Source: Fodinibius halophilus (GTDB taxonomy: Bacteria; Bacteroidota; Rhodothermia; Balneolales; Balneolaceae). Taken from it: 64,000 bases of DNA. Below the pieces are notes generated by a model that saw only the letters and a program-made list of their open reading frames with translations, did not search any database and was not told the origin of the DNA. Each line of letters begins with the position of its first letter. Position 1 is the first letter of the stretch. The DNA is taken from assembly GCF_011059105.1 (NCBI RefSeq), contig NZ_JAALLS010000010.1, positions 1 to 64,000 of the forward strand, written 5' to 3'. Shown here piece by piece: positions 11,076 to 55,419 of the stretch. A program made the translations under genes and the position numbers.

Positions 11076-14000
11076 ATGAGATATAATTGGGTTTTTAAAA
11101 ACAAAGTTTTCTACACATTCTTATTACTGGTAGGAATACCGTTTGTAGGAGTAGCCCAGCACTACGACTTTAAAATTTATTCAGTGAATGAGGGATTGCC
11201 ACAGGGACAAGTCCATGACATGGTTCAAACCAGTGATGGTTTTATCTGGATGGCAACAAATGGTGGAGGATTAAGCCGGTTCGACGGCAACTCTTTTAAA
11301 ACCTATACCACTGAAGATGGGCTCCGTAACAATGCAATACAAAATTTATATGAAGATTCTCAGGGGCGACTTTGGGTCGCCAACTACCCGGGGGGAGTGG
11401 TAACTTTTAAAGGTGATAGCTTGGTGAATCCTTTCCCTGATGATTCGCTAACACATTATGAAGTGTGGCAAATTAAAGAGTTTAATAATGAAGTTTGGTT
11501 TGGAACTTATGGCGGAGGTATCTTTGTACTTGATGATGGAGAATTTCGTCGAATTCGTAAACAAGACGGACTTGTAAGTAATTCGATATGGGATTTTAAA
11601 CAATTCAGTGATGGGGTTATCTGGATTGCAACACAACATGGTATTTCAAAATTTGAGGATGGTTCTTTTACAAATTATACCGTTGAGGATGGAGTGAGTG
11701 GGGCAAAGGTTTATCAGATAACCGAAGATAAGAAAGGCAATTTATGGTTTGCTACCAGCGATGGGGTATCAATATGGGATGGTAAAACATTTCGAAAAAT
11801 TAAAAAGATCAATGGAATTGATTTAGGCTACGTCTTTGATGTTAAAGCGGCTGCCAACGGCAATGTATGGATAGGTACTGAGATGAAGGGCGTTTTTGTT
11901 TTTGATGGTAACAGCTACAAACATTTTACCCGCGAAAATGGACTGAGCAGTAATTATATATATACCTTTTTTGAAGATGCCAACAACAATATGTGGGTTG
12001 CAACAGACGAAAATGGAGTCAACCTTTATCGTGGGGATGCTTTTGTTTTTTATGGTAAAAATTTTGGATTTTCTTCTGATGGGGTGCTAAGTGTTGATAT
12101 TGACCGGGACGGAACTATCTGGACCGGTACCGAAAATGGAGTTGATTCTTATGACGGAGAGGAAGTTAGGCATCATCCATTGCCTGAAAGGTATGCCGAC
12201 AGTAATATCTGGGAAATTGAAGAACTACCTAATGGCAACCAGTTAATAGTGATGCCGGATAACACGTTGCTGGAGTACGATGGAGATGAGTACCACAATT
12301 TTACCAAAGAAAAGGGTCTAAAACGGTGGTATACTTATGACGTCCTTATCGATTCTAAGGGTGTATGTTGGCTTGCTACTGATTATGGCATTATTCGGTT
12401 ACAAGATGGGCAGGTAGAACATTTTACTATAGAAGATGGCTTAGTCGGTAATATTGTCCATCATATCTACGAAGACACACAGGGTGATTTCTATATTGCA
12501 ACTACTGCCGGCCTGGGGATATACGATGGCAATAGCTTTGAGAAGGTTACAATTGAAGATGGGTTAGCCCATAACAGGATTAATTATATTACAGAAGATG
12601 ATAAGGGCAATATTTGGTTGGGTTCCGCTTCCGGTGTTTCCGTTTTACAACCTCAAAATGGGGGAAGCCAATATTCAATTACTAATTTTGGTAAAGAAGC
12701 GGGTATGCGACTACTGGATTCGCATTTCATTTGGTTTGACCAAGAAGGGCACTTGTGGCAGGGAACAAATGGAGGGATAAATCGCCTTAACGTTCCCCGG
12801 TACTGGGAAACCGGAAAAATGAACCTGGTGCATTATAAATTATTTGAAGAAGGAATGGGAGCTGAGTTTAACTTCAAAGCCTTGGCAGAAGATAGTTCTG
12901 GTACGGCCTGGTTTGGTAGTATGGAGGGCGTGATGAAGCTGGATATCTCTAAGCTTAATGCCAGAACGAAAACCAACCCTCCGACGGTCTATATAACAGA
13001 TATAAAAAGGAACGTTAAAAAAGTAAAGTGGGAGAAGTATAACTCTAAGCTTGAATACCAAACCGGACGATTGATATATCCATCAGTGACTTTTCCGCCC
13101 GGTGAGCATACTTATACATTCTCTTTTTCAGGTCTGGAATACCGCCAACCGGGAAATATGGAATACCGCTACCGAATGAAAGGGTTTGAAGATACTTGGT
13201 CACCTTTATCGGCAAACAATACAGCTACCTATACAAATCTGGAGCCGGGAGATTATACTTTGATGGTTCAGGCTGTTGGCGGATCCCCCAAAATGAAATC
13301 GGAGGTGACATCATATCAATTTTCTGTTGCTTATCCCTTTTGGCACACCTACTGGTTTTATACCTTGGTGGTTATAAGTTTTGTAGGGATAATATATGGC
13401 TACATCAGGGTACGGCTGGGCATGCTCGAAAAGAATAGATTGCAAGAGTTAGTAGAAGAGCGCACAAAAGATTTACGTGAAGCACTCGGAGAAAAGGAAG
13501 TATTGATTAAAGAGATCCATCATCGAGTAAAAAACAACCTTGCCGTAATTTCAGGATTATTAGAGTTACAACAGGGATATTCAGAGGACGATTTTTCCAG
13601 AAGAGTGCTTTCCGAAAGTCAACGACGGGTACAGTCGATTTCAATGATTCATGAAAAACTATACCAGAGTGAACGCCTTGCAGAAATTGATTTCAAAAAG
13701 TACGTCAAAGAGTTCATCGATATTGTCTCCTACTCATTTAATTATACAGAAAAAGAGATTACCGTTGGAATTGATGTCGATGGCTTTAAATTAGGTGTTG
13801 ATCAAGGAATACCCTGTGGCCTTATACTAAATGAGCTTGTGAGCAATGCCTATGAACATGCGTTCGAAAATCAAGAGAAAGGTCATATTGAAATAAGCAT
13901 GAAAGAAAATGGAGAAAGTAATATTGAACTTGTTATAGCTGATAATGGTAAAGGATTACCCGAAGATTTTGATATCAGCAAAAGTGACAGTTTGGGTTTG

Positions 14001-14129
14001 TCACTTATTGAGACTCTTTCAATGCAATTAAAAGGAGATTTTGAGTTTTACAATACCACCGATGGTGCGAAATTTGAATTAGAGTTCCCCAAGAAAGAGG
14101 CCCCACTCAAGGTACCCATAGACGAATAG
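11076..14129 (+). CDS. Two-component propeller sensor histidine kinase (Reg_prop-Y_Y_Y-HisKA_2-HATPase)
   Basis: A signal peptide (residues 1-27, ending VGVAQ) exports a long sensor region of repeated blades with the GxxxWxATxxGGLSRFDGxxF pattern, typical of two tandem seven-bladed Reg_prop propellers (about 30-640). A Y_Y_Y domain follows (about 690-755), then one transmembrane helix (about 758-780), a coiled-coil linker and a HisKA_2 domain with KEIHHRVKNN, placing the acceptor His at 815 or 816. The ATPase domain has NELVSNAYEHAF and DNGKGLPED. In Bacteroidota, such proteins sense periplasmic ligands, often carbohydrates. This one lacks the fused response regulator and AraC domain of classic hybrid versions, so its partner is elsewhere. 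Confidence 0.9.
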   Translation: MRYNWVFKNKVFYTFLLLVGIPFVGVAQHYDFKIYSVNEGLPQGQVHDMVQTSDGFIWMATNGGGLSRFDGNSFKTYTTEDGLRNNAIQNLYEDSQGRLWVANYPGGVVTFKGDSLVNPFPDDSLTHYEVWQIKEFNNEVWFGTYGGGIFVLDDGEFRRIRKQDGLVSNSIWDFKQFSDGVIWIATQHGISKFEDGSFTNYTVEDGVSGAKVYQITEDKKGNLWFATSDGVSIWDGKTFRKIKKINGIDLGYVFDVKAAANGNVWIGTEMKGVFVFDGNSYKHFTRENGLSSNYIYTFFEDANNNMWVATDENGVNLYRGDAFVFYGKNFGFSSDGVLSVDIDRDGTIWTGTENGVDSYDGEEVRHHPLPERYADSNIWEIEELPNGNQLIVMPDNTLLEYDGDEYHNFTKEKGLKRWYTYDVLIDSKGVCWLATDYGIIRLQDGQVEHFTIEDGLVGNIVHHIYEDTQGDFYIATTAGLGIYDGNSFEKVTIEDGLAHNRINYITEDDKGNIWLGSASGVSVLQPQNGGSQYSITNFGKEAGMRLLDSHFIWFDQEGHLWQGTNGGINRLNVPRYWETGKMNLVHYKLFEEGMGAEFNFKALAEDSSGTAWFGSMEGVMKLDISKLNARTKTNPPTVYITDIKRNVKKVKWEKYNSKLEYQTGRLIYPSVTFPPGEHTYTFSFSGLEYRQPGNMEYRYRMKGFEDTWSPLSANNTATYTNLEPGDYTLMVQAVGGSPKMKSEVTSYQFSVAYPFWHTYWFYTLVVISFVGIIYGYIRVRLGMLEKNRLQELVEERTKDLREALGEKEVLIKEIHHRVKNNLAVISGLLELQQGYSEDDFSRRVLSESQRRVQSISMIHEKLYQSERLAEIDFKKYVKEFIDIVSYSFNYTEKEITVGIDVDGFKLGVDQGIPCGLILNELVSNAYEHAFENQEKGHIEISMKENGESNIELVIADNGKGLPEDFDISKSDSLGLSLIETLSMQLKGDFEFYNTTDGAKFELEFPKKEAPLKVPIDE

Positions 14130-14130
14130 G

Positions 14131-14829
14131 TTACAAGGACAAATAATGTTGACGTTCATCTTCAGGAAATTTTTCAATAGCATATCGAAGCATTGTTCGT
14201 GGCATCTGTTGAACATGTTGATCTAAAAACCGTTTTTCACATTTACGATCACGATTTCCTATCTCCCGAAGCATCCATCCAACGGCCTTGTGAATAAGAT
14301 CGTGGTTATCATTCAGTAGTATCTCGGCAAGGGCCAGTGTATCTTCATACTCCTCTTGATGGATAAAATAGAAGGTACTTATAATCGCAATGCGCCGTTC
14401 CCACAGGTTATCCGATTTGGCCCAGCTATACAGTATATCCCGGTCTTTATCCATAAGGTAGCGACCGACAATATAGTGTGCAGAGCTGTCCACAAGATCC
14501 CAGTTATTAACGTACCGGGTATTTCGTTTATAGAGGTTGAACAGCTTTTTATGGGAGGTTTCATCCGCTTTTTCGGCTTTATGTACCATTATAACCAAAG
14601 CACAGAGGCGTTCCTCATGCCACTCAGATTGTAGTAATTTTTCAGTTTCCGGTAGTGAGAGCTCGTTAAAATCTTTGGCAATATTACGGATTTGGGGCGT
14701 AGGGATCCCCAAAAACCGATCCCCTTCGCCATACTCTCCGGGCCCTGTTTTGAAAAACTTTTGGGAACGTTCAGCACGTTCAGGATTCTCCTTTTCTCGA
14801 AGGGCCTGCTGTACTTCTTTATGATTCAT
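14131..14829 (-). CDS. DNA alkylation repair protein (AlkD-like HEAT-repeat glycosylase)
   Basis: A 232-residue all-helical protein with the AlkD-family signatures FFKTGPGEYGEGDRFLGIPTPQIR near the N-terminus and NNWDLVDSSAHYIVG, NLWERRIAIIST and DNHDLIHKAVGWMLREIG further on. AlkD-type proteins excise bulky or positively charged alkylated bases using HEAT repeats that wrap DNA. The ATG at 14829 is chosen because an upstream extension would overlap the enoyl-CoA hydratase gene; the two genes are 10 bp apart and probably cotranscribed. It meets the propeller kinase gene tail to tail with only one base between them. Confidence 0.9.
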   Translation of the reverse strand: MNHKEVQQALREKENPERAERSQKFFKTGPGEYGEGDRFLGIPTPQIRNIAKDFNELSLPETEKLLQSEWHEERLCALVIMVHKAEKADETSHKKLFNLYKRNTRYVNNWDLVDSSAHYIVGRYLMDKDRDILYSWAKSDNLWERRIAIISTFYFIHQEEYEDTLALAEILLNDNHDLIHKAVGWMLREIGNRDRKCEKRFLDQHVQQMPRTMLRYAIEKFPEDERQHYLSL

Positions 14830-14839
14830 AACAGGTTTG

Positions 14840-15601
14840 CTACGAATTTTTAAACTCATTAATGAAATTTTTGGTGAAATCAGAAAGTACCAGGCGTCCG
14901 CTGATTTCAGCTCGTTCTTCCAATAGCTCATCCCAGTTTTCGGTGCCTTCCCAGAATACTTTTTTGAGTTCAGCCATCGCATCGGGACTGTAATCAGAGA
15001 GCTGGCTCGCTAGGTCTGCCACCTGTTTATCTAGCGCTTCGTGAGAATCACAAACTTTAGAAAAGAGTCCCTTTTGACGAGCCCATTCAGCATCATTCCA
15101 GCTGGAGGCGTCAATGGATAGGGTGCTAAATGCAGAAGTCCCGACCTTTCGCTTTACAGCCGGCCCCACCACAAACGGTCCAATACCCAAGGCGAGTTCA
15201 CTCAGCTTTATAGCCGCAGATTTGTGTGCTATGGTGTAATCTCCCGCGGAGGCGATGCCTACACCACCACCAACGGTTTTGCCCTGCACACGCACAATAG
15301 TAAGCTTGGGGCACTGCCGCATAGCGTTAAGAACTTTGGCAAAACCCATGAAGAAATGTTTGCCTTCTTCATAGTTGTCGATGGCAATCAGCTCATCAAA
15401 CGAAGCCCCTGCACAGAAAGCACCTTCGCCCCGGCTTTTGAGCACCAGTACATGTACGTACTCCTTTTCGCCCATCTCAGTGATGGTAGAGGCAAGGTCG
15501 CGCAGCATCTGGCCGGGCAAGGAATTACCTTTGGGATGATAAAATTCAATAGTTCCAATGTTGTTTTCGATGGTTGTGGTAATTTCTCCGTTTTCGGGCA
15601 T
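14840..15601 (-). CDS. Enoyl-CoA hydratase/isomerase family protein, probably phenylacetate pathway
   Basis: A 253-residue crotonase-fold protein with the oxyanion-hole segment GAFCAGASFDEL and the second glycine-rich segment VGGGVGIASAGDYTIA. KLSELALGIGPFVVGPAVKRKVG holds the position of the first catalytic glutamate. It lies downstream of paaZ on the same strand, so a PaaF-like hydration step (2,3-dehydroadipyl-CoA) is likely, but the sequence alone does not separate PaaF from other crotonases. An IS481-type element and selfish units now separate it from paaZ. Confidence 0.75.
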   Translation of the reverse strand: MPENGEITTTIENNIGTIEFYHPKGNSLPGQMLRDLASTITEMGEKEYVHVLVLKSRGEGAFCAGASFDELIAIDNYEEGKHFFMGFAKVLNAMRQCPKLTIVRVQGKTVGGGVGIASAGDYTIAHKSAAIKLSELALGIGPFVVGPAVKRKVGTSAFSTLSIDASSWNDAEWARQKGLFSKVCDSHEALDKQVADLASQLSDYSPDAMAELKKVFWEGTENWDELLEERAEISGRLVLSDFTKNFINEFKNS

Positions 15602-15691
15602 AGTGGTTGGTTTAGGTCGCGATTACACGCGGGTTTGAGTTAAAATTTCTAGTTAGCAATTTCATTCGATATTTCTGTTTTGGAGTATAGT

Positions 15692-15715
15692 ATTCAGAAC
15701 TCAGAATTCAGAATA
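15692..15715. repeat. Degenerate short tandem repeat (TCAGAAT type)
   Basis: A run of the motif ATTCAGAACTCAGAATTCAG with a 7-8-nt period (units TCAGAAC, TCAGAAT, TCAGAAT). The same unit family flanks the four-helix-bundle gene at 17.7-18.1 kb, so this copy marks the left edge of the repeat-rich block inside the paa region. Confidence 0.6.
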
Positions 15716-15825
15716 TTTTTTTAATATCGTTGTGCTCCTGGGACCCACCTCTTGTTCTCCTCCGCCGGAGGAGAGACGCTTTGTTTTATGGCGTTGCCAG
15801 GTTAAAGAACATTTCCCCTCTTGGG

Positions 15826-17159
15826 TGTATAGACCGGGGACATCCTTTACAGGTGTTCCGAGACATCCTTTACACTTTAAAAAGATCAAAAAATAGGCAT
15901 TCTTACCTTCAAAAAGGAGGCCATAATGCCTTGGAAAACCGAGGAAACGAAAATGGAACTGAAAGCCGAATTTGTCCAAATGGCAGATCAACCACAGACC
16001 AATATGAGTAAGCTTTGCCGTCGGTTTGGTATCAGCTGTCCTACCGGCTACAAGTGGCTTCGCCGCTACCAACAGGATGGCTTGGAAGGGCTGTCCGAAC
16101 GTTCCCGTCGGCCCGATAACAACCAAAACAAGACACCTGACCATATCGAGGAGCTGGTCGTGGAGGCTCGTCGTCGGGATCCCGGCTGGGGCGGCCGTAA
16201 ACTGCGCTGTCACCTGTGTAATCAAGCAAGGGCCGGAACGATCGAGGCGGCTCCGGAGCAGATTCCGGCAGCGAGCACGATAACCTCCATCTTGGATCGC
16301 CACGATATGCTCGCCGAACCTTCGGATCCGAGCCGACGAGGAAGCTGGCAGCGCTTCGAGCGGGGCGCCCCCAACGAGCTCTGGCAACTGGATTTTAAGG
16401 GCGAATTTCGCTTGGCCAACCAGCAGTATTGCTATCCGCTCACGTTGGTAGATGACCATTCCCGCTTCAGTCTGGCTGTGGCAGGATGCCCGAACCAGCA
16501 ACGGAGTACGGTTCAAGAACTGCTGATAACGGTCTTCAGGCGCTATGGACTGCCTTGGGCCATGCTCTGCGACAACGGCCCGCCGTGGGGCGCGGGGCTC
16601 GGCTGGCGCGATTGGGGACCGTTCTATACCGGGTTGGCCGTCTGGCTGATGCGGCTTGGCATTGACGTCATCTACAGCCGCCCGAACCACCCGCAGGGCA
16701 AAGGCAAAAACGAGCGGTTTAACCGAACCCGGGGTGATGAGCTGCTTGCCCACCGGCAGTTCGCCGACCACAGCGAGGCCCATGCCCGGATGGCCGACTG
16801 GCGTACCCGCTATAACACAGTCCGCCCCCATCAGCACTTGGATATGAACCCACCGGCCACACGCTACGAATCCAGCGACAGAGCATTTCCAGAGCATCTG
16901 CCGCCGGTTGCCTACGCCAGCGGTGCGACCACTCGAAAAGTAACCACCAACGGCAGGATTCGCTTTCGCGGTCAACGCTTCACGGTGGGAAAAGCCTTCA
17001 GTGGCCACCGGCTTGCGCTCCGTGCTAGTTCGGAGTCTCACACATACGACGTTTATTTTTGCAACCAACAAATTCGAACCATTAATTTAAACAAGAATGC
17101 TAATTAAACGTGTTAACCATGTCCCCGAACAGGTGTAAACCATGTCCCGGAACAGAACA
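15826..17159 (+). mobile_element. IS481-family insertion sequence (1334 bp)
   Basis: The two ends are about 50-bp imperfect inverted repeats, each with two GGGACAT-ssTTTACA-type blocks (left 15826-15875, right 17110-17159, both ends beginning TGT). A 6-bp target duplication CTTGGG lies at 15820-15825 and 17160-17165. The element carries one transposase gene. Its base composition is visibly more GC-rich than the flanking AT-rich DNA, which fits recent arrival. It disrupts copy A of the 102-bp repeat and separates the enoyl-CoA hydratase gene from the DUF559 gene. Confidence 0.9.
15926..17107 (+). CDS. IS481-family transposase (DDE)
   Basis: A 393-residue protein with an N-terminal helix-turn-helix (about 25-60, LCRRFGISCPTGYKWLRRY) and an rve integrase core. 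The catalytic triad is visible as Asp156 (WQLDFKG), Asp216 (CDNGPP) and Glu263 (HPQGKGKNERFNR). A C-terminal beta-rich tail follows. A strong ribosome binding site AAAGGAGG precedes the ATG by 5 bases. The frame is intact and the inverted repeats are present, so the element may be active. Confidence 0.93.
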   Translation: MPWKTEETKMELKAEFVQMADQPQTNMSKLCRRFGISCPTGYKWLRRYQQDGLEGLSERSRRPDNNQNKTPDHIEELVVEARRRDPGWGGRKLRCHLCNQARAGTIEAAPEQIPAASTITSILDRHDMLAEPSDPSRRGSWQRFERGAPNELWQLDFKGEFRLANQQYCYPLTLVDDHSRFSLAVAGCPNQQRSTVQELLITVFRRYGLPWAMLCDNGPPWGAGLGWRDWGPFYTGLAVWLMRLGIDVIYSRPNHPQGKGKNERFNRTRGDELLAHRQFADHSEAHARMADWRTRYNTVRPHQHLDMNPPATRYESSDRAFPEHLPPVAYASGATTRKVTTNGRIRFRGQRFTVGKAFSGHRLALRASSESHTYDVYFCNQQIRTINLNKNAN

Positions 17160-17183
17160 CTTGGGAGGGGAGTAAGGGGTGGG

Positions 17184-17561
17184 TTAGTCATCATATTTTA
17201 AAACCCACTGTTCAATAACACGCAAAACATTATCAATGTCATCAAGCACTTCTTTTTCAGAAAATCGCAAGAAGTGAACACCAAAGGATTCTATTCTCTG
17301 TTGGCGTAGTCGATCTTGCTCATATTGCGAATCATGATATTTCCCGTCTATTTCAATAGCCAGCATTAGCTCTTTACAGTAGAAATCGACGATGTAACGA
17401 TCAATAGGTTTTTGACGGTCAAAATCGAAGCCGTTGACCCGCTTTTCCCGGATATATTTCCAGAGCCTTTTCTCTGCGGGTGTACTATTATTACGAAGTT
17501 TTCGTGCCTTTTCTACCAAATGGTGTTGGTAAGGAATAATATTCAATTTTTTATTGCTCAT
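17184..17561 (-). CDS. DUF559 endonuclease-domain protein
   Basis: A 125-residue protein with the DUF559 pattern: LRNNSTPAEKRLWKYIR near the N-terminus, then DRQKPIDRYIVDFYC, LAIEIDGKYH and a C-terminal VHFLRFSEKEVL. The Asp of VDFYC and the Glu-x-Asp of IEIDG match the restriction-endonuclease-like (Vsr-related) active site, so a nuclease is likely; the biological target is unknown. The gene is boxed by two direct 102-bp repeats. Its start codon is 4 bp from copy B and its stop codon overlaps the last base of copy A. It therefore has no leader or promoter outside the repeats. Confidence 0.85.
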   Translation of the reverse strand: MSNKKLNIIPYQHHLVEKARKLRNNSTPAEKRLWKYIREKRVNGFDFDRQKPIDRYIVDFYCKELMLAIEIDGKYHDSQYEQDRLRQQRIESFGVHFLRFSEKEVLDDIDNVLRVIEQWVLKYDD

Positions 17562-17565
17562 AAGT

Positions 17566-17667
17566 ACCCACCTCTTGTTCTCCTCCGCCGGAGGAGAGAC
17601 GCTTTGGTTTCTGGCATTGCTGGGTTAAAGAATATTTCCCCTCCGGGGAGGGGATTAAGGGGTGGGT
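17566..17667. repeat. 102-bp palindromic repeat, copy B
   Basis: An intact unit with terminal inverted repeats (ACCCACCTCTT and AAGGGGTGGGT), a first hairpin CTCCTCC-GCC-GGAGGAG and a second hairpin CCCCTCC-GG-GGAGGGG. It has the same length as copy A and differs mainly in the middle spacer and second loop. It lies immediately upstream of the DUF559 start codon, so it probably carries that gene's leader. Confidence 0.85.
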
Positions 17668-17717
17668 TTAAGCCCGCCCTTGTTTTATGCTTTATACTGT
17701 TTTAATTGGCAGCATCC

Positions 17718-17760
17718 ATTCTGAGTTCTGACACCTGAACTCAGGATTCAGCATTCACTC
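17718..17760. repeat. Degenerate short repeats left of four-helix-bundle gene
   Basis: Units of CTGAGTT, CTGAACT, CAGGATT and CAGCATT type form a 7-8-nt periodic run. CTGAGTTC and GAACTCAG (17721-17744) can pair as a small hairpin. The run overlaps the 3' end of the four-helix-bundle gene. Confidence 0.6.
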
Positions 17761-18113
17761 AGTATTGCCTTTGAATAAGCATTAATAAGTTTACTGACTT
17801 CTTGCAGCTTATTATTAAAATCTTCTGAGGCTTCAATATATCCAAGATCTTTTGATAAGATGATATAGTACCTACACTCTTCGAGTGATCCTTGGGAGAT
17901 ATTTAAATAACGTGCTGTATCTTTTTTTTCCCGTTTTTTAAATCCCTCCGCAATATTCGCAGCAATAGAAACAGCTGCTCTTCTAAACTGAGAGGTTAAA
18001 CCATACATTTCTGATTTTGGAAAATCTTCAGTTTGGGCATAAACTTCTAACACAAACTCATGTGCTTTTTGCCATACTATTAAATCTTGGAATGTCTTAG
18101 CTGGTCTCCTCAT
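17748..18113 (-). CDS. Four-helix-bundle protein (S23/IVS-encoded family)
   Basis: A 121-residue protein with the family signatures FQDLIVWQKAHEFVLEVY, MYGLTSQFRRAAVSIAANIAEG and a C-terminal helix with SKDLGYIEASE. The family was named from proteins encoded in 23S rRNA intervening sequences and is related to the Avd accessory protein of diversity-generating retroelements, which binds nucleic acid. It is widespread in Bacteroidota without a known function. It sits between paaZ and the DUF559 unit and is flanked on both sides by short degenerate repeats, which suggests a mobile unit (inference). Confidence 0.88.
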   Translation of the reverse strand: MRRPAKTFQDLIVWQKAHEFVLEVYAQTEDFPKSEMYGLTSQFRRAAVSIAANIAEGFKKREKKDTARYLNISQGSLEECRYYIILSKDLGYIEASEDFNNKLQEVSKLINAYSKAILSEC

Positions 18114-18125
18114 AACATCTCCTAT

Positions 18126-18160
18126 AAATTCTGATTTCTGAGTCCAGAATTCTGATGAAT
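18126..18160. repeat. Degenerate short repeats right of four-helix-bundle gene
   Basis: Units TTCTGAT, TTCTGAG, CAGAATT, CTGATGA repeat with a 7-8-nt period just upstream of the four-helix-bundle start codon. They are related to the runs at 15692 and 17718 and largely in the opposite orientation to the left-hand run. Confidence 0.6.
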
Positions 18161-18223
18161 CCTTGCCCCTTACTAGTATGACCAGCTAAAGATTCTATCC
18201 TTACAAGAAGAGCAGTAACTAAC

Positions 18224-20272
18224 TCATTCCTCCTCAAAAATATCCATATCCAGCACTTCGCGACGCTTGATGAGCGTAAGTATCGTATAGTCGGCTACAA
18301 TCTCATTATCTTGATTGCTTACTTCCACATCCCAGTAGATAATCCCGAAAGGAAATTTATCCTTAGCCTTCTTTTGCCGGACGGTCTTTCGTTTGACGAT
18401 CAATTTTGCCTGGATCGTATCGCCCGGAGCTACAGGTTGAGTAAAGCGCAGGTTTTCCAAGCCATAGTTTAGTATTACTGGGCCTTCATCCGGGTGGACA
18501 AATAAGCCTGCTGCACGTGAAAGTACAAAGTAACCGTGGGCTACGATTTCACCGAATAGTGAGCGCTCCGCAGCATCGGGATCGGTGTGAGCATAGAATT
18601 CATCTCCGGAGAGGTCGGCAAATCGCTCAATATCTTCTTCGGTCACGGTATGGGTTTCCGTAGTCCGTGCTTCTCCCACTTTCAGATCTTCGAAGAACTG
18701 CTGGAACGGATGTGTTTCAGCCTCTCGGGTTTCTGCTCCTTTAATATACTGGTTGGTGATATTCGTTAGCGTAGTAGGAGATCCCTGCAGGGCAACCCGC
18801 TGCATATTATGAATAACGGCACGGGCACCGCCCAGCTCTTCGCCACCGCCGGCATGTCCCGGTCCGCCGTGGACCATATGTGGCATCGGAGATCCGTGTC
18901 CTGTTGACTCATCAGCACAGTCGCGGTTGACGACCATAAAACGTCCGTGATACGGAGCACAGCCCAGCGTAATTTCGCGGGCAACATTATCATCGGCCGT
19001 AAAGAGAGAGCCCACCAGTGAACCGTCGGCCTTGTTTGCGAGATCGATTGCCTCTTGGTTTGACTCATAAGGCATTACCGTAGTCATAGGGCCAAAAGCC
19101 TCAACTTTATGAATCTCATCCACTTCAAAAGGCTGGCGACAAAGTAGAACCTTTGGATCAGTAAAAGCTCCTTCCAATCCTTTTCCGTTACTGTAGACCG
19201 ATTCTGTTATCTCCATGAGGTCGGAAACCTGTTCTTCGAATCGGTCGGCTTGCAGTGCACTTGCCAGTGGTCCCATACGCGTTTCCTTTTCAGCGGGATC
19301 GCCGATAGTGGTCTTGTCGAGACGTGCCTTTAAAGCTTCTACCACATCATCTACTCGTTCTTGGGGGACGATAGTGCGACGTATAGCCGTACATTTTTGT
19401 CCCGTTTTTACGGTCATTTCGTTGGCTACCTCTCTGATAAAGAGATCAAACTCTTCCATATCCGGGGTCACATCTTTCCCCAGGATCGAGCAGTTCAGCG
19501 AATCGGCCTCCAGGTTAAAGCGTACATTATTGGCTACAATATTGGGATGAGCTTTGAGCTTTTGTCCCGTGCTGGCCGAGCCCGTAAATGCAACACTATC
19601 TTGACTATTAAGATGATCCAGCAGGTCACCGGGCTTGTTGGCTGCTATAAACTGGATAGATCCTTCCGGAAGAAGCTTCGATTCTATCATATCCGAAAAC
19701 ACCTTGTAAGCGAGATACGAGCCCGTAGGTGAGGGTTTGATGATAGCAGGCATTCCCGAAATGATAGCTGGAGCAAGTTTCTCCAGCATCCCCCAAATAG
19801 GAAAGTTGAAGGCATTGATATGCACGGCTACACCATGACGGGGCACACAGATATGCTGTCCCACAAAAGTGCCTTCGCGTGAGAGTCGTTCGTGATCTCC
19901 TTCAACATGATAGGGCAGATCCGAAAGCTCAATACGGGACTTGCTGGAGAGTGTAAACATGCTGCCAATACCGCCCTCGATATCAATCCAGGAATCTTGG
20001 CGCGTAGCCCCGGTGTGGGTAGAAAGCTTATAGTAATCTTCTTTACGCTCCATCAGGTATTGGCCCAGGAACTTAATTTTAAAAGCCCGTTCATGGATGG
20101 AGAGTTTACGGAGTGCGGGTCCCGCATTTTGCCGGGCATATTCGCAAGCTCCTTTATAATCGAGATCGGCTTCCAGCATTGTTGCAACCGGCTCGCCTGT
20201 TACCGCGCTGATAAGTTCTTTTTCGTCGCCTTGGTCAATCCATTGGCCTTTAATATAGCTGCGTACTTTCAT
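18224..20272 (-). CDS. paaZ: PaaZ: oxepin-CoA hydrolase / 3-oxo-5,6-dehydrosuberyl-CoA semialdehyde dehydrogenase
   Basis: The 682-residue bifunctional enzyme has an aldehyde dehydrogenase domain (about 1-510) with catalytic Cys294 in GQKCTAIRR and general-base Glu255 in NLEADSLN. A MaoC-type hydratase domain follows (about 540-680), with the Asp/His active-site motif FADLSGDEFYAHTDPDAA. In the aerobic phenylacetate pathway, the hydratase domain opens oxepin-CoA and the dehydrogenase domain oxidises the resulting aldehyde. The size agrees with Escherichia coli PaaZ (681 residues). It is on the same strand as the other paa genes but about 36 kb from them, with selfish units inserted downstream. 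Confidence 0.95.
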   Translation of the reverse strand: MKVRSYIKGQWIDQGDEKELISAVTGEPVATMLEADLDYKGACEYARQNAGPALRKLSIHERAFKIKFLGQYLMERKEDYYKLSTHTGATRQDSWIDIEGGIGSMFTLSSKSRIELSDLPYHVEGDHERLSREGTFVGQHICVPRHGVAVHINAFNFPIWGMLEKLAPAIISGMPAIIKPSPTGSYLAYKVFSDMIESKLLPEGSIQFIAANKPGDLLDHLNSQDSVAFTGSASTGQKLKAHPNIVANNVRFNLEADSLNCSILGKDVTPDMEEFDLFIREVANEMTVKTGQKCTAIRRTIVPQERVDDVVEALKARLDKTTIGDPAEKETRMGPLASALQADRFEEQVSDLMEITESVYSNGKGLEGAFTDPKVLLCRQPFEVDEIHKVEAFGPMTTVMPYESNQEAIDLANKADGSLVGSLFTADDNVAREITLGCAPYHGRFMVVNRDCADESTGHGSPMPHMVHGGPGHAGGGEELGGARAVIHNMQRVALQGSPTTLTNITNQYIKGAETREAETHPFQQFFEDLKVGEARTTETHTVTEEDIERFADLSGDEFYAHTDPDAAERSLFGEIVAHGYFVLSRAAGLFVHPDEGPVILNYGLENLRFTQPVAPGDTIQAKLIVKRKTVRQKKAKDKFPFGIIYWDVEVSNQDNEIVADYTILTLIKRREVLDMDIFEEE

Positions 20273-54225: not shown

Positions 54226-55419
54226 ATCTTTCCAAAAAGGAAGTCCTCACTTAGATTAGAGATAATCAATCGTAACTAACTAAGGAGGACCCCATGATTC
54301 ACGTAGGAATCGATCTTCATACAACTAATATGATGAATGTAGCTTTAAATGACAACGGGGAAGTTGTCCAGAAGGCCAAGCTGCCGACGTCCCGGCGATC
54401 CCTTGAGGATTTTTTCGGTACATTTGATGATCCAGTGAAAGCCGTCGTCGAATGTACCAGCAACTGGTATTGGCTGTCGGACTGGTGTCGGTCCAATGGC
54501 GTGGACCTGACGCTGGCCCACGCGAAGATGGTCAAGGCGATCAGCTATGCCAAGGTCAAAACCGACACGGTTGATGCGAAGACTCTGGCCGAGCTACTAC
54601 AGGCCGACCTTATTCCGGAGGCCTACCAGGTACAACCCGACCGACGAGAGCTGCGGGAGCTGACCCGCGGTCCCGACAGCTGTCGGGATGATCCAGTGGC
54701 GGGGCAAGCTGCAGTCGGCGCTGTGGGGCCAGGCGATCAAGTATAACGTGCAGATCACAGGCAGCCAGTGGCGACAGCTGGATAACCTACAAGCCTGGCT
54801 CCATCCACAATTGCCCAAGGCGGCGGTCTGCAGGCCGAGCTGATGATCGCCCAACTCAGTCAGCTGCAATTGCATATCCATCGGGTAGAAGAAATTGAGA
54901 AACAAGTCCCCTTTGAGGCTGCCGTCGAGTGCCTGATGGCCGTCCCCGGACTGGGCAAGGTAGGGGCATGAACCATTATGGCCGAGATTGGCGATATTAC
55001 CCGATTCCCGAGTGCCAAGCAGTTTGTCAGCTACTGTCGGCTGGTACCGGGTAGTAAAAACAGTGGAGGGAACAGGAGGCATAAATCAGGCAATAAAGAC
55101 GGGAATAAGTACCTGCGAGCAGCTTTCGGGCAAGCAGCCGTCTCTGCATATACCCATTACAAGGTCGTGAAGAAATTTTATCGAAAAATTAAACGCCGCA
55201 GCGGTCGCTCGGTAGCCCGAGCCGTTGTAGGCAAAGAGCTGGCCAAAGGCGTTTGGTATATGTTGACACGAGATGAAGAATACAAAGGATTTAAGGGGCA
55301 TCCCGACAGTTGTCGGGACTCCTTAAACCTGCTGGCCCCAACCGATAAGCCCGAACGCCTAAGAGGGACATCGAGCCCGTGCGCCCCGGTTGGGACATCG
55401 GTTGGCTGGCCGGTTAAAG
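54226..55419 (+). mobile_element. Degenerate IS110-family element in an attC site
   Basis: Begins at the attC crossover point and runs to about 55419, with a possible short inverted end (ATCTTT near 54226 and AAAGAT near 55416). It carries one transposase gene broken in several places. The right side continues into the array repeat at 55420, so the right end of this attC and the beginning of the next are missing, as after an IS-mediated deletion. It is more GC-rich than its surroundings. Confidence 0.7.
54294..55400 (+). pseudogene. IS110-family transposase, frameshifted
   Basis: The first part (IHVGIDLHTTNMMNVAL, VVECTSNWYWLSDW, KVKTDTVDAKTLAELL) is a DEDD-type IS110 N-terminal domain. A palindrome TCCCGACAGCTGTCGGGA at 54671-54688 occurs where the frame changes. 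The next part (IQWRGKLQSALWGQAIKYN to LPKAAV) is one frame over, a base is missing near 54828, and a TGA interrupts at about 54970. The C-terminal part resumes as IMAEIGDITRFPSAKQFVSYCRLVPG. A second palindrome is at 55301-55318. The gene is inactive. Confidence 0.85.

Follow-up and report, generated by a model that had tools for sequence, protein, structure and literature searches.

REP-like palindromes are among the commonest repeats of bacteria, and the GTAG type is, to our knowledge, the only one to which an enzyme has been assigned. In REP/REPIN-RAYT systems (REPtrons, TnpA-REP), a small nuclease gene of the HUH/Y1 type has hairpin repeats of its own type on both sides; these are also found solo, as single and dimer copies, and within genes, and each gene has its own repeat type. 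The RIMEs of rhizobia are intergenic elements of about 100 bp with two palindromes, a layout resembling that of the solo dimers described below. According to a 2013 survey (Di Nocera et al. 2013, PMC3733652), CGTC-tagged and untagged REPs are short palindromes which form head-to-head dimers and lie, in some cases, in frame in genes, including those for tRNA synthetases. The same survey states that the CGTC repeats have no dedicated transposase, asks whether untagged palindromes are paired with specific proteins, and describes the Rickettsia palindromic elements (RPE) as palindromes in frame within protein genes.

The proteins of the DUF559 family have been put in the EDxHD family (PMC9403480). 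A Caulobacter member, VsrA, causes an SOS response (DNA-damage signalling) in cells without a cytosine methylase and was proposed to be a Vsr-like very-short-patch repair enzyme (PMC12907096). In Legionella, segments in which a transposase occurs together with DUF559 are hotspots of recombination (PMC12308824).

Here we describe a DUF559 gene of Fodinibius halophilus located in a window of 64,000 nucleotides (the whole stretch of DNA that was analysed) and compare it with DUF559 genes elsewhere. The arrangement shares with REP/REPIN-RAYT all the features listed above, i.e. the boxed small nuclease gene, solo single and dimer copies, one repeat type per gene and intragenic copies. However, its nuclease is a Vsr-like PD-(D/E)XK enzyme instead of an HUH/Y1 one, its repeats mostly lack GTAG, and RAYTs of the same genomes use other repeats. 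With a nuclease of another type than HUH/Y1 and without the tags, the system is not considered here a member of REP-RAYT, although it seems to work alike. Short palindromes, head-to-head dimers and in-frame copies in genes are likewise shared with the CGTC-tagged and untagged REPs (PMC3733652), the difference from the former being that CGTC is absent from single DUF559 units. The fold is that of EDxHD/I-Bth0305I and Vsr, but the DUF559 gene has hairpins at its borders, and no splicing device is known for its entry into host proteins; unlike an RPE, the unit has its own nuclease gene between two palindromes. It is fairly probable, in our view, that the DUF559 gene and its two repeats are a unit of a widespread nuclease-plus-repeat system in which DUF559 is the proposed cognate enzyme of an untagged REP/REPIN class. 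The recurrence of this pairing in many phyla suggests a kind of mobile DNA that has gone unrecognized, in which the enzyme would travel together with its own repeat class. In the openly available literature searched, no link between DUF559 and a repeat was found; a previous sequence-only reading of the locus knew of no description.

Organization of the locus

The sequence-only reading had proposed that a nuclease gene is boxed by two 102-bp repeats in direct orientation, each with inverted ends and two internal hairpins. Both copies were indeed found to be 102 bp long (83 + 19 bp for copy A, the IS and one copy of CTTGGG being left out) and to be identical at 93 of 102 bases in the same orientation (Table 1). 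Within copy A, the IS interrupts the loop region of hairpin 2 and has a 6-bp duplication (CTTGGG, at 15820-15825 and 17160-17165) on its two sides. Each copy appears as a dimer of two opposed hairpin-tail units with the tails outwards (ACCCACC...GGTGGGT): unit R consists of ACCCACCTCTTGT followed by TCTCCTCCGCCGGAGGAGA and unit L, in the opposite sense, of TCCCCTCCGGGGAGGGGA followed by TTAAGGGGTGGGT, with a spacer between them. The gene has the R end of one copy on one side and the L end of the second copy on the opposite side. As had been read, its start is 4 bp away from copy B, and base 17184 is common to the stop codon (17184-17186) and copy A. The claim that nothing but repeats surrounds the nuclease gene did not hold, since a four-helix gene (PF05635; 17751-18113) adjoins the DUF559 region.

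A single long hairpin is the predicted fold of copy B as one DNA strand (-22.2 kcal/mol, z = -3.33), and none of 200 shuffles was as good. In the window, the initial 21 nt of the repeat were found at two positions, which was the case in none of 100 shuffles (mean 0.00). On the minus strand, the window copies have CGTC next to hairpin 1.

Table 1. Features of the DUF559 locus (positions in the window)
Feature	Positions	Strand	Remarks
Copy A, left 83 bp: tail, hairpin 1 (15756-15774), spacer, left half of hairpin 2	15743-15825	+	
IS481-family insertion sequence, 1334 bp, ends TGT...	15826-17159	+	transpos_IS481, 250.6 bits (cut-off 224)
IS481-family transposase gene, 393 aa; later insertion, outside the DUF559 unit	15926-17107	+	
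Copy A, right 19 bp: remainder of hairpin 2 and tail AGTAAGGGGTGGGT	17166-17184	+	Last base within DUF559 stop codon
DUF559 gene, 125 aa, Vsr-like nuclease fold (predicted)	17184-17561	-	PF04480, E = 2.8e-33
Copy B, intact 102-bp repeat: hairpin-tail units R (17566-17602) and L (17637-17667), spacer between	17566-17667	+	
Hairpin 1 of copy B, TCTCCTCCGCCGGAGGAGA	17579-17597	+	
Hairpin 2 of copy B, TCCCCTCCGGGGAGGGGA, then tail TTAAGGGGTGGGT	17637-17654	+	

The DUF559 protein

The gene belongs to the DUF559 family by its PF04480 profile match (114.5 bits; cut-off 20.6). DUF559 and MTES_1575 were the only Pfam matches at E <= 0.001, an HUH/Y1 tyrosine nuclease domain thus not being among them. 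The structure was predicted from 40 sequences (pLDDT 87.8), and this model was used for fold comparison, an earlier one from the single sequence being poor (pLDDT 66). It was most similar to the gonococcal DUF559 structure 3hrl (NGO0050; Z = 15.3), followed by the homing endonuclease I-Bth0305I (3r3p; Z = 12.1) and Vsr (1cw0; Z = 9.8). The predicted fold is therefore of the Vsr/I-Bth0305I kind, and the nuclease can be called Vsr-like, as the sequence-only reading did. Residues E30, D59, E70, D72 and H76, which we take to be the putative active-site (catalytic) residues, are invariant across the 40 sequences. DUF559 was also matched by the I-Bth0305I profile (E = 2.7e-4) and by a PHROG homing endonuclease family (E = 3.5e-7), and PADLOC yielded nothing beyond weak matches to methyl-directed restriction enzymes (E = 7.9e-7). 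Purifying selection on the protein is strong: dN/dS was 0.04-0.12 in the hemF-linked DUF559 pairs (4 of 6 pairs with computable dS, synonymous change being near-saturated).

Linkage of DUF559 genes to flanking repeats

Seven DUF559 genes were found in the genome of F. halophilus, and a DUF559 match in 30 of 58 relatives. For each gene, 300 nt on either side were taken and a flank-to-flank repeat score was computed, a locus being called boxed at a score >18. Three sets were analysed: 69 DUF559 loci of the relatives (from 86 rows, 17 being dropped as weaker, partial or not fetched), 76 of the best-scoring 80 loci of named organisms among the matches listed (4 were dropped because a flank was <150 nt; this set is biased towards relatives of the window protein) and 166 control ORFs (4 further ORFs were excluded, being DUF559 themselves). 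Boxing was observed for 55 of the 69 relatives' loci and 60 of the 76 from the best 80 named loci, versus 9 of 166 control ORFs (Mann-Whitney P about 1e-26 for DUF559 versus control scores). The possibility that DUF559 genes of relatives lack such repeats, as well as that of the repeat being absent outside the window locus, can thus be dismissed. Flanks of the same locus match far more often than flanks from different genomes, for which 43 of 828 pairs were over the threshold (set of 69). However, 14 of 69 and 16 of 76 loci, respectively, were unboxed at >18, which counts against the preferred explanation.

A tblastn search (E <= 1e-5) detected DUF559 in 42 of 72,556 records of a plasmid collection (some of the 42 being, judged on length, whole chromosomes) and in 2 of 50,697 phage records. 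Given so few matches, the idea that DUF559 is phage or plasmid cargo was rejected. Among 13 loci drawn from the 42 records, 8 were boxed at a score >20, and these belong to alpha- and betaproteobacteria, Deinococcus and cyanobacteria; the other 5, including the gene of E. coli H240, were unboxed at >20 and again count against the preferred explanation. The boxing of DUF559 by matching repeats is, all the same, a cross-phylum phenomenon which extends beyond the window locus. In one relative (L078, G001:C1), two DUF559 genes with identical protein cores are 3.25 kb apart, which may reflect tandem copying or recent movement.

A distinct class of repeats

The repeats flanking DUF559 genes form a distinct class, made up of a C-rich hairpin (TCCCCTCTTGAGAGGGG-like) and a GGGGTGTGT-like tail. 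The C-rich stem motif was present on both flanks in 67 of the 76 loci from the best 80 named ones and in 56 of the 69 relatives' loci, as against 3/67, 5/65, 3/60 and 2/54 distant-window pairs for the named loci and 1/66 for the relatives. Forty-eight single-unit segments could be aligned as TCCCC-hairpin-GGGG, a short link and GGGGtgtGT; among their sources are Cyanothece, Brevinematales, Planctomycetota (including Jettenia and Loosdrechtia), an Acidobacterium, Ignavibacteriae, Chlorobiota, a proteobacterium and many Bacteroidota. Pelosinus, Nitrospinota, Thermodesulfovibrionia and Magasanikbacteria have boxed loci as well, in which the repeats are longer or direct. By a strict pattern the tail is on the gene side in at least 26 of the 48 single units, which is a lower bound because tails vary (GGGGTGTGT, GGGGTGGGT, GGGGGATGA). 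The general unit has one hairpin per side, in inverted orientation and with tails towards the gene, the 102-bp dimers on both sides of the window gene being a further form of it. The distances between hairpin and codon are widely spread, both values being drawn from 15 loci only. In the preferred explanation, the repeat is a hairpin of REP-like kind whose G-rich tail stands on one side only, and two such units are often combined in a REPIN-like dimer of about 100 bp. GTAG was found anywhere in 3 of the 48 single-unit segments and CGTC in none of them; membership of the DUF559 repeats in the GTAG- or CGTC-tagged REPs was rejected on these counts.

Solo copies of the repeats

Exact matches to the 21-nt start of the window repeat were confined to F. 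halophilus itself (G000), G005 and G007, the 3 of 12 genus members that have DUF559 at the window's site. Besides copies A and B, only two solo half-copies of the window repeat exist in its own genome, and this counts against the preferred explanation. Matches with three mismatches to the 21-nt start belong partly to another repeat in this genome, in which several places also carry a longer dispersed repeat (GTCCCTCTCCCTGCG...AACCTCCTCTTGGTCTCCTCCTTCATAAGGAGGAGAAAT; L154-L160).

The tail-and-stem pattern of one repeat type gave 126 matches in 16 of the 58 genomes: 12 within 600 bp of a DUF559 gene and 114 elsewhere. Solo repeats of this type thus outnumber the DUF559-linked ones, a comparison that the sequence-only reading had recommended. 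Matches with at most one mismatch occurred in 10 of 30 DUF559-positive versus 0 of 28 negative genomes (P = 8e-4, uncorrected for kinship). All of these 10 genomes are also Y1_Tnp-positive, so that presence alone cannot separate DUF559 from Y1_Tnp as the mover. G017 has two clear solo units and yet neither DUF559 nor Y1_Tnp matches, a further point against the preferred explanation. Twenty of the tail-and-stem matches were inspected: several are outward-tailed dimers like the window copies, others are single and one (G011) has no hairpin. A Sinorhizobium repeat was found at 512 places in 164 plasmid-collection records; 27 of these places are within one record, in which tblastn shows a single DUF559 place. 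DUF559 genes thus present the REPtron-type combination of a gene flanked by palindromic repeats that are found solo as well. In solo dimers the tails point outwards and in gene-bearing units inwards, so bare dimers are not simply units from which the gene was deleted.

RAYT and four-helix genes as alternative partners

RAYT-like Y1_Tnp matches were found in 30 of the 58 relatives. The set compared with DUF559 consisted of 40 Y1_Tnp loci (out of 49 rows, E <= 1.5e-16), of which 31 were boxed at >18, a frequency like that of the DUF559 loci, providing a useful positive control for the boxing score. The C-rich motif was present in 37 of 47 DUF559 repeats, 1 of 29 RAYT repeats and none of 7 four-helix repeats. 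The nearest repeat from another genome was of the same class for all 47 DUF559 repeats (RAYT repeats being the sole alternative class) and for 17 of 29 RAYT repeats. RAYT was therefore rejected as the owner of the DUF559 repeats, its own loci being boxed by another class, as was the four-helix gene as the owner of C-rich repeats. The RAYT-like Y1_Tnp boxes (L331-L370) contain many different palindromes, several of which are not GTAG-like. Fifteen four-helix (PF05635) genes are present in the F. halophilus genome (the one in the window and 14 further loci; L012-L026), 7 of them boxed by repeats that are not C-rich; four-helix genes and their own repeats may be another gene-repeat partnership.

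Similarity between proteins and similarity between repeats were correlated across 100 DUF559 loci, including the best named loci (Mantel rho = 0.373), and within the relatives (0.264) and the best named loci (0.336), with 0 of 500 permutations as high in each case. This joint variation fits cognate pairs; common descent of neighbours would also produce it.

These results bear on an explanation in which a different enzyme is the mover of the repeats, the likeliest candidate being a RAYT-type Y1/HUH transposase that acts in trans, with DUF559 as one of several passengers caught between the repeats. The distribution of Y1_Tnp, which includes every genome with close repeat matches, and the boxing of four-helix genes, which deprives DUF559 of uniqueness in this respect, are in its favour. 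However, a RAYT is expected to sit inside its own repeats and the RAYT loci are boxed by a different class, whereas the DUF559 protein and its repeat vary together. We therefore regard a RAYT in trans as unlikely.

Gain or loss at insertion sites

The window's site is between PaaZ and an enoyl-CoA hydratase gene. Of 10 genus members with recognisable synteny, 3 have DUF559 there: F. halophilus, G007 and, as a decayed copy, G005. In the latter two the unit is just R-gene-L. A recent horizontal arrival of the window gene was considered, but its synonymous divergence from the copies of G007 and G005 shows the same saturation as is seen for the gene next to it. Because the synonymous divergence of DUF559 resembles that of its neighbours, two of the filled sites look old and mostly vertically inherited, which counts against the preferred explanation. 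The only transposase near the window unit is that of the IS481 element inserted later. In G008 (L121) a four-helix gene occupies the same intergenic spot upstream of the enoyl-CoA hydratase gene, F. halophilus having both genes, and the spot may be an insertion hotspot.

At the hemE-hemF site, 4 of 12 genomes have the unit. Hairpins delimit it on either outer side, and its gene forms an in-frame fusion with hemF. The site is empty and without repeat in the other 8. A third site is filled only in F. halophilus (1/12), measuring 664 nt there versus 27 nt in its close relative G010. At this site (L401, G000:C1, near 234000), there is a partial tandem duplication of a 181-bp stretch in which 41 bp of host gene, a repeat and the 3' end of DUF559 are joined, possibly a trace of the insertion process. 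In 11 of the 69 records DUF559 is inside a longer open frame, the host frames being hemF (4), Eco57I-type methylase genes (3), leuS, pheT, hsdR and hemD; 8 fusions were confirmed by Pfam (one hemF representing four). The insertion in leuS (about 166 aa) was seen in 1 of 26 parsed alleles (30 genomes; 4 loci unparsed) and that in pheT (about 185 aa) in 1 of 18 parsed alleles (28 loci; 9 not entered in the comparison and 1 unparsed). Empty alleles at hemE-hemF, leuS and pheT are all without repeat, from which it seems that the hairpins and the gene arrived together. No clear target-site duplication was visible when the empty sites were compared by eye. The sequence-only reading had looked to empty sites with one repeat copy; empty sites do exist, but none with exactly one whole repeat was found at the three sites examined.

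According to another explanation, DUF559 is a free-standing homing endonuclease which landed in pre-existing C-rich palindromes, the target being duplicated on arrival and the repeats spreading otherwise. I-Bth0305I is the closest solved fold after NGO0050, the profile and PHROG matches point the same way, and the solo dimers share the anatomy of the 102-bp copies, between two direct copies of which the window gene lies. The repeat-free empty alleles at hemE-hemF, leuS and pheT speak against it, as does Rfam, which gave no match at E <= 1 around the DUF559 gene in window positions 14000-19000. No intron or intein was seen around the gene, and the Pfam tables of the 8 fusion proteins contained no intein domain. 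Homing appears improbable to much the same degree as a RAYT in trans. Least probable of all is a reading of DUF559 as an ordinary host gene, for repair or of a restriction-like kind, at which terminators or regulatory hairpins gather as they would at small genes. The strong purifying selection, the unboxed E. coli H240 gene and the VsrA activities (PMC12907096) speak for it. Against it, boxing is rare among control ORFs, unrelated genes have units within their open reading frames, and close relatives differ by the gain or loss of sites.

A possible mechanism and its implications

If DUF559 is the cognate enzyme of its repeats, as we favour, the hairpin would first be extruded, on the lagging strand or as a cruciform, and DUF559 would recognize its own repeat type once folded. 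It might then nick or cut at the hairpin-tail junction, after which repair would copy or re-insert the hairpin-bounded stretch elsewhere. The products would mostly be bare repeats and occasionally hairpin-gene-hairpin units. Such units could survive in frame within essential genes because translation meets no stop on its way through hairpins and gene. The sequence-only reading had likened the locus to a REP/RAYT-like repeat-mobilizing unit; the gene-repeat partnership stands in view of the boxing, the solo repeats and the empty sites, whereas binding and cleavage by DUF559, the strand chemistry and the role of DUF559 itself as the mover of the repeat are what we infer.

DUF559 is a candidate for the protein of one untagged REP class, and tying it to that class across many phyla would be a testable answer to the question asked in the 2013 survey (PMC3733652). 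A family named as a domain of unknown function would gain a likely biology, and small nuclease cassettes are seen here in frame within essential genes such as leuS and pheT. A broader proposal, which we advance only tentatively and on balance slightly doubt, is that DUF559 founds a second lineage of repeat-mobilizing nucleases unrelated to HUH/RAYT, each gene having its own C-rich hairpin-tail repeat. Together these would account for much of the untagged REPs/REPINs found in bacteria of many phyla, and the hairpin-gene-hairpin cassettes would be able to insert in frame into essential genes and be kept there as additional domains.

Other repeats in the window

The entire DUF559-IS region is surrounded by a 25-nt inverted repeat of the ATTCTGA type (15683-15707 and 17718-17742, 80% complementary), and repeats such as ATTCTGAATTCTGA surround the four-helix gene next to it. 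Two nearly identical GC-rich hairpins, TCCCGACAGCTGTCGGGA (54671-54688) and TCCCGACAGTTGTCGGGA (55301-55318), are located 630 bp apart.
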